Source of the DNA: Thiotrichaceae bacterium
GTDB taxonomy: Bacteria; Pseudomonadota; Gammaproteobacteria; Thiotrichales; Thiotrichaceae
NCBI GenBank assembly: GCA_027008885.1
Contig: JALVDQ010000011.1
Span: 1 to 18,300 of the forward strand
Reading direction: 5' to 3'
Length of the DNA: 18,300 nucleotides
The notes under the pieces: generated by a model
Database searches by the model: none
Seen by the model: only the letters and a program-made list of their open reading frames with translations
What the model was told of the DNA's origin: nothing
Shown here: one piece after another, positions 6,846 to 18,300 of the stretch
Numbering within the stretch: the first letter of the stretch is position 1
Layout of the letters: every line of letters starts with the position of its first letter
Program-made: the position numbers and the translations under genes

Positions 6846-6930
6846 TACCCATCCCCCCTGTTTTTGATATATTTTTGCGTAGCCCGTATGAAGCCTGCTG
6901 AATACGGGGAATATGTGCAACATATTCCAG
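6846..6930 (+). repeat. Composite repeat module (C-rich repeat plus hairpin repeat), copy 1
   Basis: These 85 bases begin directly after the ABC gene stop codon and are nearly identical to 18019-18103, which begin directly after the ttcA-like stop. The first part (6847-6876) is a C-rich repeat, ACCCATCCCCCCTGTTTTT followed by an AT run. The second (6877-6930) carries two inverted repeats: CCCGTAT/ATACGGG with an 12-base loop, and GGAATATGT/ACATATTCC with a 3-base loop. The pattern is REP-like; hairpins here could also stabilise or end the ABC transcript. Confidence 0.85.
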
Positions 6931-7026: not shown

Positions 7027-7056
7027 ACCCATCCCCCCTGTTTTTGATATATTTTT
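7027..7056 (+). repeat. C-rich short repeat, second copy, abutting two 7-bp units
   Basis: This copy of ACCCATCCCCCCTGTTTTT plus GATATATTTTT is identical over 30 bases to 6847-6876. It is directly preceded by CTCTGTTCTCTGTC (7013-7026), two units of a 7-bp repeat that is expanded next to the copy at 14262-14290. Confidence 0.8.
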
Positions 7057-7078: not shown

Positions 7079-7198
7079 GTGTTTTGTAGGTCGGATTAGC
7101 CCAAGCGTAATCCGACAAAATCGTGGCACTATGTTGGATTACGCTACGCTAATCCAAGCTACGCATTCGAGTAAATCAACAGGTTTCAGCCACTACCT
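7079..7198 (+). repeat. REP-like repeat with GTCGGATTAG/TAATCCGAC hairpins, copy 1
   Basis: The block holds two hairpins: TCGGATTA with TAATCCGA, and TTGGATTA with TAATCCAA around GCTACGC. It ends in AAATCAACAGGTTTCAGCCA. A second copy lies at 15376-15506 with a roughly 12-base insertion, and a fragment of the tail at 14515-14537. Repeats of this GTCGGATTAC/GTAATCCGAC type are common between genes in gammaproteobacteria. Confidence 0.8.
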
Positions 7199-7341
7199 GT
7201 TTCTGATTTTTAGCAGGGTTTCGCAGCCTGATACTTTTGTATTTTTAATAACGGTTTGCGCATGGCTGCGAGATACTTTTCTGTCAACAGCTACACAAAA
7301 GTATCCAAAAGAAAGCCGCCCTGTTAACAAGCCGCAAGCGG
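7198..7341 (+). repeat. 144-bp interspersed repeat, copy 1
   Basis: It matches 18141-18284 over 144 bases with only scattered substitutions and no net length change. Inside is a perfect inverted repeat GATACTTTT/AAAAGTATC around a 16-base spacer. Short open frames cross it on both strands but have no ribosome site and are repeated with the element, so I treat it as noncoding. Just downstream TTAACAAGCCG (7324-7334) pairs with CGGCTTGTTAA (7365-7375). Confidence 0.8.
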
Positions 7342-7410
7342 TATCCGCTGATATCTGCGTTGCTCGGCTTGTTAAAAGGGCTTGTCGCAAGATTCTGTCA
7401 CAGGCTTAGT

Positions 7411-12878: not shown

Positions 12879-13298
12879 TCAGGGAAGATAAATCACAATA
12901 CTTCTTTTAACATAGCGATTATGGGGGTAGCGGCGTTTCAGCTTGTCTTTAATTGCAACCGCTTCTGACTTGTAGGAATAAGGTCCGATTCTTACCTTGT
13001 AAATAGGTCTGCCTCTTAACTCGGTTGACAGCACAAAGGCCGAATACCCGTCTCTGGCAAAATCATACATAAGCTGCTTTGCCTGCCTGAGATCACGGGT
13101 TGCCATCAGCTGCACCCCATAACCTGTATAATTCGGCTCACTGATTATGGTTTCTGTCACAGTGGTGGCAATAGAGGAAACCTTATTTTTGATGACCGCT
13201 CTTTTTTTAAAGGCATACAATATAAGCAGGATAACAGCCCCCGCGATCACCGCTATTGTGAACTTACTCAGCTTTCCATTTTGTTTTTTCATCATCAT
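12879..13298 (-). CDS. Small SPOR-domain inner-membrane protein
   Basis: With the first ATG chosen, the protein has 139 residues: a short basic cytoplasmic tail, one membrane segment (about 14-30) and a periplasmic SPOR domain (about 59-132). SPOR landmarks are GYGVQLMATRD, ARDGYSAFVL, GRPIYKVRIGPY and spaced alanines. SPOR domains bind denuded glycan strands of peptidoglycan, often at the division septum, so a cell-wall role is likely. The start is one of three consecutive ATGs (13298, 13295, 13292); GGGA at 13302-13305 best suits the first two. A TTG at 13310 could extend it by four residues but would overlap that ribosome site. It is monocistronic and convergent with comM. Confidence 0.85.
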   Translation of the reverse strand: MMMKKQNGKLSKFTIAVIAGAVILLILYAFKKRAVIKNKVSSIATTVTETIISEPNYTGYGVQLMATRDLRQAKQLMYDFARDGYSAFVLSTELRGRPIYKVRIGPYSYKSEAVAIKDKLKRRYPHNRYVKRSIVIYLP

Positions 13299-13331
13299 AA
13301 GTCCCTTCAATGCTCTTCCATTAGCACCTAT

Positions 13332-13360
13332 AAGATAGAACGTCGCTTGTTAAAAATCAA
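13332..13360 (-). promoter_or_regulatory. Probable sigma-70 promoter of the SPOR-domain gene
   Basis: On the reverse strand TTGATT (13355-13360) and TATCTT (13332-13337) are separated by exactly 17 bases, each matching four of six consensus positions. A start point near 13325 would give a leader of about 30 bases. Confidence 0.4.
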
Positions 13361-13494
13361 TGATTTGTATTATTAAGAGGCAATATTAGGAACAATTAGG
13401 GAAGAATAAGAATCTTCTCTGGTACTGGTTCTAAGTGCCCAAACAAAATTTCGTTTCCTGTTTTTTTGATAATCAAGGCATTACGGCGGGAGTA

Positions 13495-13510
13495 TAGGAG
13501 CCTGTCCGAG
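13495..13510 (+). repeat. MITE-type terminal repeat, isolated copy
   Basis: TAGGAGCCTGTCCGAG matches the terminal repeats at 17021-17143 at nearly every position. A weak inverted partner, GACAGGGGCTA (13531-13541), lies just downstream. The segment 13510-13558 that follows is also found inverted and diverged at 16958-17006. Confidence 0.55.
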
Positions 13511-13581
13511 CAATAACAAGAAGATCAGAAGACAGGGGCTAAATTATTAGATTAATTTTTAGCGGGTACTTAAAAAAACAG

Positions 13582-13675
13582 TGTAAATAAAAATGCCTCT
13601 TTGCGGGGAACAAAGAGGCATGGAGATTGAGATCGGTAGTCATTTTATTTTTATTTATTAGCTAAACTACTCTTT
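13582..13675. ncRNA. Putative structured RNA element, copy 1
   Basis: Reading the plus strand: GTAAATAAA, then a perfect 11-bp stem ATGCCTCTTTG/CAAAGAGGCAT with loop CGGGGAA, a spacer ending GGTAG, then an AT-rich box inside a GTAGT/ACTAC stem. Read on the minus strand, the first hairpin is followed by TTTTTATTT, like an intrinsic terminator, which would make this a small RNA with an AT-rich middle and a CCCC loop. The direction is therefore open. The element recurs at 13839-13932. I recognise no known RNA family. Confidence 0.45.
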
Positions 13676-13694
13676 ACCTCAGGTTTAACCAGGT

Positions 13695-13736
13695 TTTTAC
13701 TTATGTGTGTAGTCGCATTTACTGACATAAGTAAAA
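13695..13736. repeat. Perfect 12-bp inverted repeat between the structured elements
   Basis: TTTTACTTATGT (13695-13706) is the exact reverse complement of ACATAAGTAAAA (13725-13736), with an 18-base spacer that can pair further (AGT/ACT). Confidence 0.7.
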
Positions 13737-13787
13737 TTTGTAAACAGATAACTAACCGTATAATCCTGCTTAGTTACCTGTTATACC

Positions 13788-13835
13788 CTTCGTGCTTAAA
13801 AATATGCTCAGATTGAGGCATTATTAAGCACGAAG
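13788..13835. repeat. Perfect 12-bp inverted repeat with nested inner stem
   Basis: CTTCGTGCTTAA (13788-13799) pairs with TTAAGCACGAAG (13824-13835). Inside, ATGCTCA pairs with TGAGGCAT with one bulged base, giving a long hairpin. No T-run follows on either strand, so it does not look like a simple terminator. Confidence 0.7.
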
Positions 13836-13838
13836 AAC

Positions 13839-13932
13839 GTAAATAAAGTGTGTCTCCAAGCCGGGGAAAGCAAAGAGACACGTATGAGACTGGTAGTTAT
13901 TTTATTTTTATTTATTAGCTAAACTACTCTCC
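13839..13932. ncRNA. Putative structured RNA element, copy 2
   Basis: GTAAATAAA is followed by a stem GTGTCTC/GAGACAC that encloses a CGGGGAA-containing loop, then a spacer ending GGTAG and an AT-rich box that matches copy 1 at 35 of 36 bases, bounded by GTAGTT/AACTAC. Compared with copy 1 the outer stem differs on both sides while pairing is kept. On the plus strand a weak hairpin (TCAAACT/AGTTTGA, 13958-13973) followed by T-rich sequence lies just beyond; on the minus strand the GTGTCTC stem precedes ACTTTATTTA. Confidence 0.45.
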
Positions 13933-13957
13933 GCCTCGGGGCCTACTAAATTCCTTT

Positions 13958-13990
13958 TCAAACTTCAGTTTGATTTTATTGTTGTTATTC
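13958..13990 (+). terminator. Weak intrinsic-terminator-like hairpin
   Basis: TCAAACT and AGTTTGA form a 7-bp stem around two bases, followed by TTTTATTGTTGTTATT. The stem is AT-rich and the loop tight, so it is weak. It would end a plus-strand transcript of the second structured element. Confidence 0.25.
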
Positions 13991-14119
13991 CTTTTTTCTT
14001 ATGTCTTTAGATATGCAAGCGCAATGCCAAGTTACCAAATAAGCAATCTATCTTATTGTATTTAATCAATTTTTAAGAATCTCAAGAGAGCAGAACAAGG
14101 ATTGATTTATTGTCATAAA

Positions 14120-14146
14120 CTGACACTTAATGACTATTAGTGTCAG
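14120..14146. repeat. Perfect inverted repeat CTGACACT/AGTGTCAG
   Basis: CTGACACT (14120-14127) and AGTGTCAG (14139-14146) pair perfectly, and TAAT/ATTA can extend the stem inward with one bulge. No clear T-run follows. It could be a bidirectional terminator or an operator. Confidence 0.5.
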
Positions 14147-14200
14147 CTTTAAACGCTACTTGAATGCCAGCACAAATTTAACTGACATCCACACAAAAAA

Positions 14201-14263
14201 AGACAAACAAAAGTATGGCACCATGCTGAATTAGGCACGCCAGTTCAATCAGTGCATTAGCAA
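14201..14263 (+). repeat. About 60-bp direct duplication, left copy
   Basis: This block, containing GGCACCATGCTGAAT and ending CAATCAGTGCATTAGCAA, is repeated at 14399-14459 with small differences. The two copies flank the C-rich repeat and the 7-bp array. Confidence 0.75.
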
Positions 14264-14290
14264 AAATATATAAAAACAGGGGGGATGGGT
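14262..14290 (-). repeat. C-rich short repeat, third copy, reverse orientation
   Basis: On the reverse strand it reads ACCCATCCCCCCTGTTTTT then ATATATTTTT. It joins the 7-bp array exactly as the copy at 7027 joins its two 7-bp units. Confidence 0.8.
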
Positions 14291-14291
14291 G

Positions 14292-14401
14292 ACAGAGGAC
14301 AGAGGACAGAGGACGGAGGACAGAGGACAGAGGACAGAGGACAGAGGACAGAGGACAGAGGACAGAGGACAGAGGACAGAGGACAGAGGACAGAGGACAG
14401 A
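14292..14401 (+). repeat. Tandem array of 15 ACAGAGG units
   Basis: Fifteen 7-bp units (14292-14396) plus a partial sixteenth. All are ACAGAGG except the fourth, ACGGAGG. Because 7 is not a multiple of 3, open frames cross the array on both strands as 7-residue repeats, but these have no other gene-like features. Copy number is likely to vary between strains. Confidence 0.95.
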
Positions 14402-14459
14402 CAAGAGTATGGGCACCATGCTGAATCAGACTACACCAGTCCAATCAGTGCATTAGCAA
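14399..14459 (+). repeat. About 60-bp direct duplication, right copy
   Basis: Matches 14201-14263 from AGACAA to CATTAGCAA with a few substitutions and short gaps. Its left end merges with the last partial unit of the 7-bp array. Confidence 0.75.
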
Positions 14460-14463
14460 CAAA

Positions 14464-14483
14464 GGACTGACAATAGTCAGTCC
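14464..14483 (-). terminator. Probable intrinsic terminator of the rhodanese gene
   Basis: On the reverse strand GGACTGAC pairs with GTCAGTCC around TATT, followed by TTTGTTG. It lies about 60 bases past the rhodanese stop codon. The stem is perfect but the T-run is short. Confidence 0.5.
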
Positions 14484-14514
14484 CCTGATGAGGCTAATTT
14501 AAGCTGCAATTGAG

Positions 14515-14537
14515 CAAATCAACAGGCTAAGCCATCG
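14515..14537 (+). repeat. Fragment of the REP-like repeat tail
   Basis: AAATCAACAGG followed by CTAAGCCATC matches the right end of the repeats at 7079-7198 and 15376-15506. The hairpin part is missing. Confidence 0.5.
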
Positions 14538-14544
14538 CTATCGT

Positions 14545-15297
14545 TTATTTCACTGTGGTTAGACCTAATATATTCCAGTCCTGCATTCCACCACGATAAT
14601 ATTTTATTTTCTCGGCTGGATAACCAAATTTTCTGAGTGCCGCGATACTGGCAGGCGATTGCCCACACCACATGCCATTACAGAACATCACCAGTGTTTT
14701 GGCATCGCTAAAATCAAAAACTTCAGAGGTATCACCATTTGCAATTGCCTCATCAACATCAACCTCATCTTTGCCTTGTTTTAGCTTAACTCCGAACTTG
14801 CCCATCATAATCTTCATAATACCTTCTGTGGTCGCTCCTTTCCTTGGCGTTAATTCAACCCACGAGATATTAATTGAGCCTGGAATCGTGCCTCTGGCAA
14901 CCCAGTCGGGTGTACGCGAATCAACCAGCAGAATAGTCTTGTCACCATCGTGAATTTTCTTTGCATAGTTAATCACTTCAAGCTCACCAATGGTTTCTAT
15001 GCCTTTTCCCAAACTCATGGGCTGAATGCAAAAGGGCGGACAGGGACGTGAGGTTTTCGCAAAAGAAGGATCAACATTTGCCAGATTATCCTGATTGCGC
15101 ATAATTTTAACTTCTTTGCCATTATGCGTGACACTGACACTGGACAGCTCGCGCGTTATTCCAACAGGCTTTCCTTTGGCTATAACTGGATTGATGCTTA
15201 AAAGCAGTGCTGTAATCAAAGCGAAAAGCGATAATTTTGACAGCGTTGTTGCCAGCATTGTTGACAGTGTTGTTGATAGTGTTGTTGCCAGATTCAT
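14545..15297 (-). CDS. Exported rhodanese-like protein with extra cysteine motifs
   Basis: With the ATG at 15297 the protein has 250 residues; AGGAGG at 15306-15311, eight bases upstream, decides this start over a longer in-frame ORF that runs into a repeat. A signal peptide is clear (hydrophobic 21-39, likely cleavage after INPVIA, residue 40), so the protein should be periplasmic. The rhodanese fold shows TILLVDSRTPDW (121-132), GTIPGSINISW (136-146) and an active loop MFCNGMWCGQSP (204-215). That loop has two cysteines (C206, C211) rather than the usual single one. A second motif, RPCPPFC (C86, C90), precedes the domain. A role in sulfane-sulfur transfer or thiol chemistry is likely, but the partner is unknown. 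The N-region is encoded by 12-bp tandem repeats. It appears monocistronic. Confidence 0.82.
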   Translation of the reverse strand: MNLATTLSTTLSTMLATTLSKLSLFALITALLLSINPVIAKGKPVGITRELSSVSVTHNGKEVKIMRNQDNLANVDPSFAKTSRPCPPFCIQPMSLGKGIETIGELEVINYAKKIHDGDKTILLVDSRTPDWVARGTIPGSINISWVELTPRKGATTEGIMKIMMGKFGVKLKQGKDEVDVDEAIANGDTSEVFDFSDAKTLVMFCNGMWCGQSPASIAALRKFGYPAEKIKYYRGGMQDWNILGLTTVK

Positions 15298-16901: not shown

Positions 16902-16912
16902 TGCTCTGGCTC

Positions 16913-16942
16913 AAAAATATATAAAAAAAGGGGGGGATGGGT
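16913..16942 (-). repeat. C-rich short repeat, fourth copy, upstream of pip
   Basis: On the reverse strand it reads ACCCATCCCCCC, then a T-run and ATATATTTTT, ending 11 bases before the pip start codon. It is slightly diverged (a longer C-run, CTG lost). The rest of the 346-bp gap between pip and the ttcA-like gene holds the diverged repeat at 16958-17006 and the MITE-like element. Confidence 0.75.
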
Positions 16943-16957
16943 ATGATACCTAACCAT

Positions 16958-17247: not shown

Positions 17248-18018
17248 ATGACAAATAATCGCAAATTAATCAATCCAATAACACTTCCCAAACGCTTAAA
17301 ACGCTATGCGGGCAAGGCAATCAGTGATTATGCCATGATCCGCGATGGTGACCGCGTACTGCTGGGCTTGTCTGGCGGCAAGGATTCCTTAAGCCTGCTA
17401 CACTTGCTGATCCACTTTCAGCGTCATGCACCGATTAAATTTGAAATCGCCGCCATGACGGTAGACCCGCAATCAGACAACTTTGACCCCTCACCACTCA
17501 TCCCCTACCTGGCATCGCTGGGAGTCGAATACTACTACGTCAAGGAAAGCATTCTGGAAATGGCAGACAAGCACATGAGTGGCGACTCCTACTGCTCATT
17601 TTGCGCCCGTATCAAACGGGGAGTGATGTATAACACCGCCAGAAAACACGGCTACAACGTACTGGCTCTGGCACAACACCTGGATGATCTGGCAGAAAGT
17701 TTTTTAATGTCAGCCTTTCATGGCGGCAAGCTAAAAACCATGAAAGCGCATTACCTCAATGATGCCGGAGACGTGCGCGTCATCCGCCCACTGGTTTATA
17801 CCAGAGAACGCATTCTTGCCAGCTTCGCCAAACAACAGAACCTTCCGGTAATCGAAGAAAACTGCCCCGCCTGCTTCTCAATGCCCACTCAGCGCGAACA
17901 CATGAAACAACTACTGGCAAAAGAAGAACAATCCGCACAAAACCTCTTCGGCAGCCTGCTATCCGCCATGCGCCCCCTAATGCGGCAAGGAATGCCTGAA
18001 AATAATAACAGCAAATAA
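17248..18018 (+). CDS. TtcA-family PP-loop ATPase, probable tRNA 2-thiolation enzyme (short form)
   Basis: The ATG at 17248 gives 256 residues; the longer in-frame ORF runs back into the MITE-like element and is rejected. The PP-loop is SGGKDS (42-47). CSFCARIKRGVMY (116-128) supplies the paired cysteines C116 and C119, and LAQHLDDLAESFLMSAFHGGK (141-161) matches the TtcA/MesJ-type nucleotide-binding block. TtcA uses an iron-sulfur cluster to put sulfur on cytidine 32 of tRNA. This protein is shorter than E. coli TtcA (about 310 residues), and its late cysteine motif is NCPACF (C206, C209). It may therefore be a TtcA paralogue with a different target. The ribosome site is weak (CGGAT). The stop codon abuts a repeat module. 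Confidence 0.82.
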   Translation: MTNNRKLINPITLPKRLKRYAGKAISDYAMIRDGDRVLLGLSGGKDSLSLLHLLIHFQRHAPIKFEIAAMTVDPQSDNFDPSPLIPYLASLGVEYYYVKESILEMADKHMSGDSYCSFCARIKRGVMYNTARKHGYNVLALAQHLDDLAESFLMSAFHGGKLKTMKAHYLNDAGDVRVIRPLVYTRERILASFAKQQNLPVIEENCPACFSMPTQREHMKQLLAKEEQSAQNLFGSLLSAMRPLMRQGMPENNNSK

Positions 18019-18103
18019 TACCCATCCCCCCTGTTTTTTACACATTTTTGCGTAGCCCGTATGAAGCCTGCGGAATACGGGGAATATGTGCAACATATTC
18101 CAG
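18019..18103 (+). repeat. Composite repeat module (C-rich repeat plus hairpin repeat), copy 2
   Basis: Equal in length and nearly equal in sequence to 6846-6930, and likewise placed directly after a TAA stop codon. The CCCGTAT/ATACGGG and GGAATATGT/ACATATTCC stems are conserved; differences are concentrated in the AT run between the two parts (TACACA for GATATA). Confidence 0.85.
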
Positions 18104-18140: not shown

Positions 18141-18284
18141 TGTTTCTGATTTTGAGCAGGGTTTCGCAGCCTGATGCTTTTGTGTTTTTAATAACGGTTT
18201 GTGCATGGCTGCGAGATACTTTTCTGTCAACAGCTACAGAAAAGTATCCAAAAGAAAGCCGCCCTGTTAACAAGCCGCAAGCGG
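18141..18284 (+). repeat. 144-bp interspersed repeat, copy 2
   Basis: Second copy of 7198-7341, with the GATACTTTT/AAAAGTATC inverted repeat kept although the spacer differs by one base. The window ends 16 bases later. Between this copy and the composite module there are only 37 bases, whereas the first locus has the REP doublet and another REP-like repeat in between. Confidence 0.8.
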
Positions 18285-18300
18285 TTCCCTGCGCTACTCG

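Follow-up and report, generated by a model that had tools for sequence, protein, structure and literature searches.

The minus strand of the window, by which we mean the whole 18,300-nucleotide stretch analyzed here (positions 1 to 18,300 of contig JALVDQ010000011.1, assembly GCA_027008885.1, from a Thiotrichaceae bacterium), carries two units of a structured small RNA whose family is, judging by comparison, as good as certainly new and whose transcription is very likely driven by sigma-54. The RNAs are likely to be controlled by PilR and likely to bind Hfq, and on balance we lean toward reading the locus as a set of PilR/sigma-54-controlled, Hfq-binding siblings that function like CrcZ and CrcY without being members of those families by sequence.

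Comparison of the window with itself aligned two units, 257 bp apart, over 56 nt at 88% identity without gaps, a repeat for which chance is not a reasonable explanation. Both copies of the tandem pair described in an earlier note on this DNA are present, with GTAAATAAA, the GGGGAA loops, GGTAG, and the near-identical AT-rich box and its GTAGT/ACTAC closure, and the outer stem changes from ATGCCTC/GAGGCAT to GTGTCTC/GAGACAC with its pairs preserved, as had been claimed. The stems of that description stand but its extent does not, as each unit is ∼106 nt long and the region reaches ∼14145 with its promoter and upstream sites. In the minus-strand RNA the outer stem forms the terminator-like hairpin; the earlier description contained neither the sigma-54 promoter nor the pairing of GAGGC/GAGGU with GUCUC/AUCUC, which closes the box from outside. 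The features are as follows, with bit scores from two covariance models, R1 and R2.

14111..14145, minus strand: candidate upstream activating region, with the palindrome TGTCA-N5-TGACA at 14111-14125 and an extra half-site at 14141-14145
14014..14030, minus strand: sigma-54 promoter TTGGCAT-N5-TTGCA, score 18/18
13948..14003, minus strand: predicted 5′ leader, its start placed 12 nt past the -12 GC
13974-13989, minus strand: A-rich AATAACAACAATAAAA in the leader, a run of 7 ARN triplets
13842..13947, minus strand: RNA unit 1 (R1, 110.2 bits; R2, 92.5 bits), laid out as GGCCCC 5′ strand, P1, internal loop, P2, linker, and P3
13897-13923, minus strand: P2 of unit 1 with its A-rich apical loop
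13850-13881, minus strand: terminator-like hairpin P3 of unit 1, unflagged by the terminator scan
13788..13835, minus strand: spacer hairpin just past unit 1 (inverted repeat I3, 16-nt arms)
13695..13736, minus strand: spacer hairpin just ahead of unit 2 (inverted repeat I2, 17-nt arms)
13585..13690, minus strand: RNA unit 2 (R1, 100.3 bits; R2, 86.8 bits over 13584-13690)
13636-13670, minus strand: A-rich box of unit 2
13593-13621, minus strand: terminator-like hairpin of unit 2, followed by TTTTATTTAC and flagged by the terminator scan

The upstream region is predicted to be the site of an NtrC-family enhancer-binding protein, probably PilR. Unit 2 has no sigma-54 site of its own and is probably co-transcribed with unit 1; a transcript running from the predicted start at 14003 to the end of unit 1 would be ∼162 nt long and, with read-through, would reach ∼420 nt and take in both units. 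A sigma-70 scan of 13300-14550 returned a single site, past unit 2 (13491-13519), compared with 3.4 in shuffles. The 494-contig assembly of the same organism holds the pair in the window as its only two matches, and the covariance models agree.

Other repeats lie in the same DNA. Upstream of the RNA promoter, at 14291-14401, there is an array of ∼16 copies of GACAGAG with 98% matches, and direct repeats that are 87% alike (14202-14266 and 14396-14462) stand on either side of it. A dispersed repeat of ∼30 nt or more occurs in ∼5 copies on both strands of the window (6847-6876, 7027-7056, 14260-14290, 16912-16944, and 18015-18051); the copy near 14280 holds GGGGGATGGGTGAC, and similar strings were seen by eye in two Cocleimonas loci, L009 and L019. 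Finally, a 145-nt direct repeat with 97% identity (7198-7342 and 18141-18285), accompanied by 6843-6930/18016-18103, resembles a mobile or duplicated segment.

The sense strand of the RNA is the minus strand of the window. Measured against shuffles, the minus-strand fold gave a z score of -3.4 for copy 1 and a weak -1.6 for copy 2, and plus-strand folds of the two copies were no better than shuffles (-0.8 and +0.1). RNAalifold, applied to a MAFFT alignment of 18 units (A1, with the near-identical L006 and L015 left out), found two-sided changes in 15 of 20 pairs. The structure consists of three helices: P1 (GAGGC/GUCUC), P2 (GUAGUU/AACUAC) bearing an A-rich apical loop of ∼20 nt, and P3, the terminator-like hairpin. 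Across the 18 units 93.2% of the cells are paired with two-sided changes at 16 of the 22 pairs, and none of 500 shuffles equaled the covariation on any of five measures. With 84 units all 22 modeled pairs show two-sided changes; this alignment was fitted to the model, and 22 pairs were reached by 1 of 500 shuffles and the other four measures by none, with slid controls scoring far lower. On the minus strand G-U cells outnumber A-C cells by 32 to 9 in A1 and by 111 to 27 in A3, an alignment fitted to the model. Two proposals made earlier from the two copies, selection on RNA structure and a sibling small RNA in each minus-strand unit (having an AU-rich segment and, as terminator, a hairpin with a CCCC loop), are strongly supported by this covariation in 18 and in 84 units, by the promoter direction, and by the G-U excess. 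The companion suggestion of a CsrA site on the plus strand was rejected: the promoter faces the opposite way, the G-U excess is on the minus strand, and the GGGGA is simply what stands opposite the terminator loop.

Two segments are conserved in addition to the A-rich loop. The columns of the 5′ strand GCAAGCCCC are 80-98% conserved in the 84 units although the model leaves them unpaired; the C-rich terminator loop is conserved there as well, to a lesser degree, and in the Thiothrix units that were read it lacks this C-rich character.

The RNA was found across the Thiotrichaceae. A nucleotide search of 57 relatives, including the organism's own genome, detected the element in nine, of which seven have at least two units near each other; in the other two, G002 and G007, the units stand singly, at two sites per genome. 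Model R1 matched 43 of 63 family genomes at an E value of 0.01, and R2, which was built from 84 units, matched 56 of the 63 at 0.001, among them 43 of 46 good genomes and representatives of all eight genera; order-level and family-level samples consisted of the same 63 genomes. The copies returned by these searches carry compensating changes, as would be expected of the structured family that the earlier note had suggested looking for with a covariance model. No R2 match was obtained in seven genomes (G003, G034, G058, G062, G065, G067, and G071), although the promoter pattern is present in G003, G034, and G065. A search of the class matched 3 of 276 genomes, all three of them Thiotrichaceae, with 0 of 273 for the other genomes of the class, under strict filters that weak relatives may escape and with 253 rows beyond those listed. 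A pattern scan with one genome per species (84,980 species) returned 30 stretches, which fall in Cocleimonas, Leucothrix, Thiothrix, Thiotrichaceae MAGs, and two proteobacterial MAGs; the exact pattern of the box in the window had no match in the contig database. Kinship suggests a Cocleimonas-like bacterium of the Thiotrichales as the source of the window. There are up to six units per genome (G017 and G028), and two model matches with E values of 0.69 and 0.85, along with the duplicate locus L042, were left out of the locus counts. Rfam gave nothing at the gathering score in the window and only rows below gathering scores at ten loci, in agreement with the earlier note, whose author knew of no family so arranged.

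Some loci have further pieces past the units. L007 has a lone terminator-like hairpin past its second unit (1813-1853) with the same CTTTCCCCGG loop and without the A-rich part. Four Cocleimonas loci share a third conserved piece, at ∼1304-1370 of L005 (minus sense), 1900-1990 of L007, 1740-1810 of L008, and 1200-1260 of L010, made up of AGTTTAGTTAATCTAGCAAG...CCTGAGG...GAGTA and then a U-rich stretch that might pair with the A-rich loops; it may antagonize the array or act as its sponge.

When the best TTGGCAY-N5-TTGCW site was sought in the 200 nt ahead of the first unit, 49 of 50 loci gave a sigma-54 site scoring 16-18 of 18, the sole exception being L046, which begins just 32 nt into its contig; random stretches drawn from these loci, which hold some true sites, reach 16 in 3.0% of cases. 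Most later units of arrays have no sigma-54 site of their own. Searching with palindrome and promoter together, with no RNA sequence in the pattern, gave 61 sites in 39 of the 63 genomes and none for the reversed pattern. Thirty of these were fetched, of which 14 were read and 16 match model hits in position; 29 of the 30 lead into RNA of one of two types, the other being L093, whose contig ends right where a unit usually starts, and no protein gene was seen as a direct target among the 30. The second type of RNA accounts for six of the 30 sites (L094-L099), all in genus g7, the Leucothrix group. It lacks GCAAGCCCC, contains five to eight AAYAAHAA motifs per RNA, and scores only 17-24 bits with R2. 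In all four genomes searched of the six, hfq lies ∼5 kb downstream of the type-2 RNA on the same strand, which may be mere gene order.

With distribution and promoter in hand, two readings that dispense with a trans-acting RNA can be weighed. A mobile or palindromic repeat of the REP or MITE kind, lacking RNA function, would explain why the two copies in the window are near-identical, as are two copies in L063 that lie 2.4 kb apart, but it would not lead one to expect just two copies in the organism's own genome, covariation of three helices, a promoter at nearly every first unit, or an RNA that the searches made confine to one family; we consider it exceedingly improbable. We give hardly more credence to a cis-acting leader or riboswitch of the downstream gene at 12879-13310 on the minus strand. 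In the window that open reading frame does follow the units in the same direction, and its product was named by eye as SPOR-domain-like. Folds, however, close both units with terminator-shaped hairpins (the scan flagged unit 2 alone), and the neighbors, again judged by eye, vary: some Cocleimonas loci have a glyS-like frame on the opposite strand, and in the Thiothrix locus L079 the neighbors are oxidoreductase-like and arginine-decarboxylase-like open reading frames.

The identity of the activator is suggested by the sites upstream of the promoters. TGTCA/TGACA half-sites number 3.74 per 170-nt upstream region at 53 promoters, compared with 0.31 in composition shuffles, and the palindrome TGTCR-N5-YGACA occurs in 29 of the 53, nearly always 77-109 nt ahead of the -24 box, and is absent from 24. 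Each of nine genomes also has a pilin gene with a 17/18 sigma-54 site and 3-5 half-sites in 200 nt. Thirteen of the 19 pilin matches were examined, the remaining six being mostly second tandem copies, and 10 of these 13 loci have the sigma-54 site with at least three half-sites (the exceptions are L180, L193, and L194), a number of half-sites found in 2.9% of random stretches, which hold some true sites; at L189, the outermost pilin match of G017, a mere 14 nt separate the sigma-54 site from the end of the contig. For 17 other sigma-54-like sites ahead of open reading frames, belonging to P-II and activator loci, the mean was 0.41 half-sites, with none of the 17 having three, and 14 of them have NtrC-type sites. 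These two sets of results indicate that the half-sites are common to the RNAs and the pilin gene and not to nitrogen genes. NtrC was rejected as the activator, as NtrC-type promoters carry TGCAC instead of TGTCA.

Activators were compared at 23 of 28 loci in G000, G002, G022, and G012, with L160, L161, L162, L165, and L172 absent from the comparison and weaker matches unfetched. Two groups had best matches in all four genomes, NtrC and a PilR-like protein, which we take for PilR itself, with a tail (WNRTAAAKKLGMTFRQLRYRIKKY) resembling that of Pseudomonas PilR. A histidine kinase gene is directly upstream of the PilR-like gene, which in G012 ends ∼0.8 kb ahead of the first of two pilin matches. 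In NCBIfam the PilR-like protein matched NtrC best, at a score below the cut-off, and no PilR model was among the 25 matches listed. Because the half-sites are common to the RNAs and the pilin gene and are at background at the 17 other sites, PilR is the likely activator. In the Pseudomonas PilR regulon, pilA has a sigma-54 promoter with TGTC-type half-sites; the RNAs resemble that regulon in their sigma-54 promoter and in having half-sites in common with a pilin gene, and differ from pilA in that the target here is a non-coding RNA. The spacing of the half-sites at the pilin genes, however, is unlike the TGTCA-N5-TGACA palindrome of the RNAs, and the hallmark of PilR sites given in excerpts of PMC6058289 is the GTCT element, which TGTCA matches only in part, so that PilR stands as the best candidate rather than as a proven activator.

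The motifs within the transcripts point to Hfq. First-unit transcripts contain 3.08 AAYAAHAA motifs each, compared with 0.19 in dinucleotide shuffles, and 2.06 motifs of the strict form AAYAAYAA, compared with 0.09, with at least one strict motif in 41 of 53 (53 transcripts were counted, with one identical transcript left out of the AAYAAHAA count). The motifs are located in the leader, where AAYAAHAA is found for 36 of 53 promoters, and in the apical loop, whose most conserved columns spell AATAAAAATAA at 73-95% conservation each. The transcript in the window has three strict motifs; its units have a longest ARN run of 4 triplets, compared with 5 or 6 in most Leucothrix units, a point against the proposed reading. 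Of the 36 family genomes searched for hfq, 35 gave a match; the exception is G002, in which the RNA is present and whose close relative G007 has hfq. Some pilin leaders have AAYAAYAA near the start codon as well (G012, G035, G075, and G030 of the Thiothrix group and G017 of Leucothrix), and those of G000, the organism's own genome, G002, and G028 do not. The motif stands ahead of 10 of 135 open reading frames, six of the 10 being pilin rows from three genomes; the 135 come in part from overlapping loci, so some were counted more than once.

What the RNAs would do with Hfq and which protein switches them on are the points at which other explanations carry most weight. The RNAs could be Hfq-dependent, base-pairing siblings in which the A-rich loop is just the Hfq part, with GCAAGCCCC and the terminator loop pairing to G-rich ribosome sites of several mRNAs in the manner of Listeria LhrC or Neisseria NgncR_162/163, and to this we assign a substantial, although minority, share of belief. 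Multi-copy siblings under sigma-54 control are known among base-pairing RNAs such as Qrr, and conservation of GCAAGCCCC and of the terminator loop counts against a pure Hfq decoy, which would not need them. The searches for targets, weak tests as they are, went the other way. No perfect match to the 9-nt strand shortly ahead of the start of an open reading frame was found among the 30 of 110 hits fetched, from 11 genomes: 2 of 36 readings were open for at least 60 codons, and both frames are open further upstream (the reversed control contains CG and was unfair). Duplexes with pilin leaders reached at most ∼2 standard deviations against 15 shuffles each in eight genomes, and the departure of the Thiothrix terminator loops from a C-rich sequence also speaks against such pairing. 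An Hfq decoy is slightly favored over a base-pairing regulator. As to the activator, we think it unlikely, but by no means negligibly so, that a different enhancer-binding protein acts on the RNAs and that their half-sites coincide with those of the pilin promoter by chance. The half-site is a short pentamer, a single-domain activator (L165, L167, and L170) and a divergent one (L161) are also present, and five of the 28 activator loci lie outside the comparison with others unfetched; weighing against coincidence, the same half-sites recur at a pilin gene in all nine genomes and fall to background at the 17 other sigma-54-like sites.

Several known RNAs invite comparison. The Qrr RNAs of Vibrio are multi-copy siblings with sigma-54 promoters that are linked to LuxO and Hfq, and the present RNAs differ from them in that later units of the arrays are mostly without their own promoter; the Qrr model had no match at the units, its sole row being one of 21.2 bits (cut-off 50) elsewhere in L010. 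LhrC of Listeria and NgncR_162/163 of Neisseria are tandem siblings with C-rich single-stranded segments, for which we know of no sigma-54 control. The repeated loop GGA of CsrB/RsmZ-type decoys is not seen here, GGA occurring in 2 of 18 A1 units (twice in unit 1 of the window, one of them in P3, and once in unit 1 of G009) and in none of the apical loops.

The closest parallel is with CrcZ and CrcY, beside which CrcX is a further Hfq-Crc decoy. The Rfam CrcZ model gave no row at E values up to 5 in four loci or up to 1 in six, the latter including two of type 2. In Azotobacter, excerpts of PMC5429807 place an RpoN promoter just ahead of the first A-rich motif of CrcZ and count six AANAANAA motifs in CrcZ and five in CrcY, mostly on loops, with Hfq and Crc together repressing mRNAs that have such a motif near the start; RpoN dependence of CrcZ is also given in excerpts of PMC6292655. 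As far as these excerpts go, the RNAs described here are like CrcZ and CrcY of Pseudomonas and Azotobacter in having a sigma-54 promoter, an NtrC-family activator (a candidate here), redundant copies, and several AANAANAA-type motifs that begin close to the 5′ end and sit mostly on loops. They are unlike CrcZ in that the activator is probably PilR rather than CbrB and in having the conserved P1/P2 stem, the GCAAGCCCC strand, and repeated units each with a terminator-like hairpin. The CbrAB system is described in PMC6296734 and PMC8871633 as confined to pseudomonads. Among the matches listed in the open-licence literature, no title or opening of an abstract dealt with the RNA described here or with a PilR-controlled small RNA.

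Taken together, a PilR-controlled, Hfq-binding RNA would work as follows. PilR, with PilS, would switch on transcription of the RNAs during pilus production; the P1/P2 stem would hold the A-rich loop open, Hfq would bind both the leader and the A-rich loops at their AAYAAYAA-type motifs, and P3 would end or protect the RNA. It is less certain that the RNAs work mainly by occupying Hfq, as the Pseudomonas CrcZ and CrcY do; if so, translation would rise for mRNAs that carry this motif close to their start codon, among them the pilin mRNAs of several Thiothrix and of one Leucothrix, with the strength of the effect set by copy number. We put forward only tentatively, and judge to be rather unlikely as a whole, the bolder proposal that Thiotrichaceae independently evolved a CrcZ-like Hfq decoy wired to PilSR instead of to carbon catabolite control. 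PilR would then induce pilin together with arrays of two RNAs, type 1 presenting AAN repeats on a stem and type 2, in Leucothrix, an AAN-rich RNA that is much diverged or unrelated, and these would strip Hfq off pilin and other mRNAs; the resulting feed-forward loop would commit filaments to attaching or gliding.

The RNA is a structured family with strong covariation, spread across a whole family of sulfur-oxidizing bacteria and without a match above the Rfam cut-offs, and it arrives with a ready hypothesis about its regulator, for which Cocleimonas flava, Leucothrix, and Thiothrix offer cultured carriers for tests. If that hypothesis is true, it would tie global regulation through Hfq to the two-component system of the pilus and would suggest an origin of CrcZ-like decoys outside Pseudomonas as well, in response to another signal.
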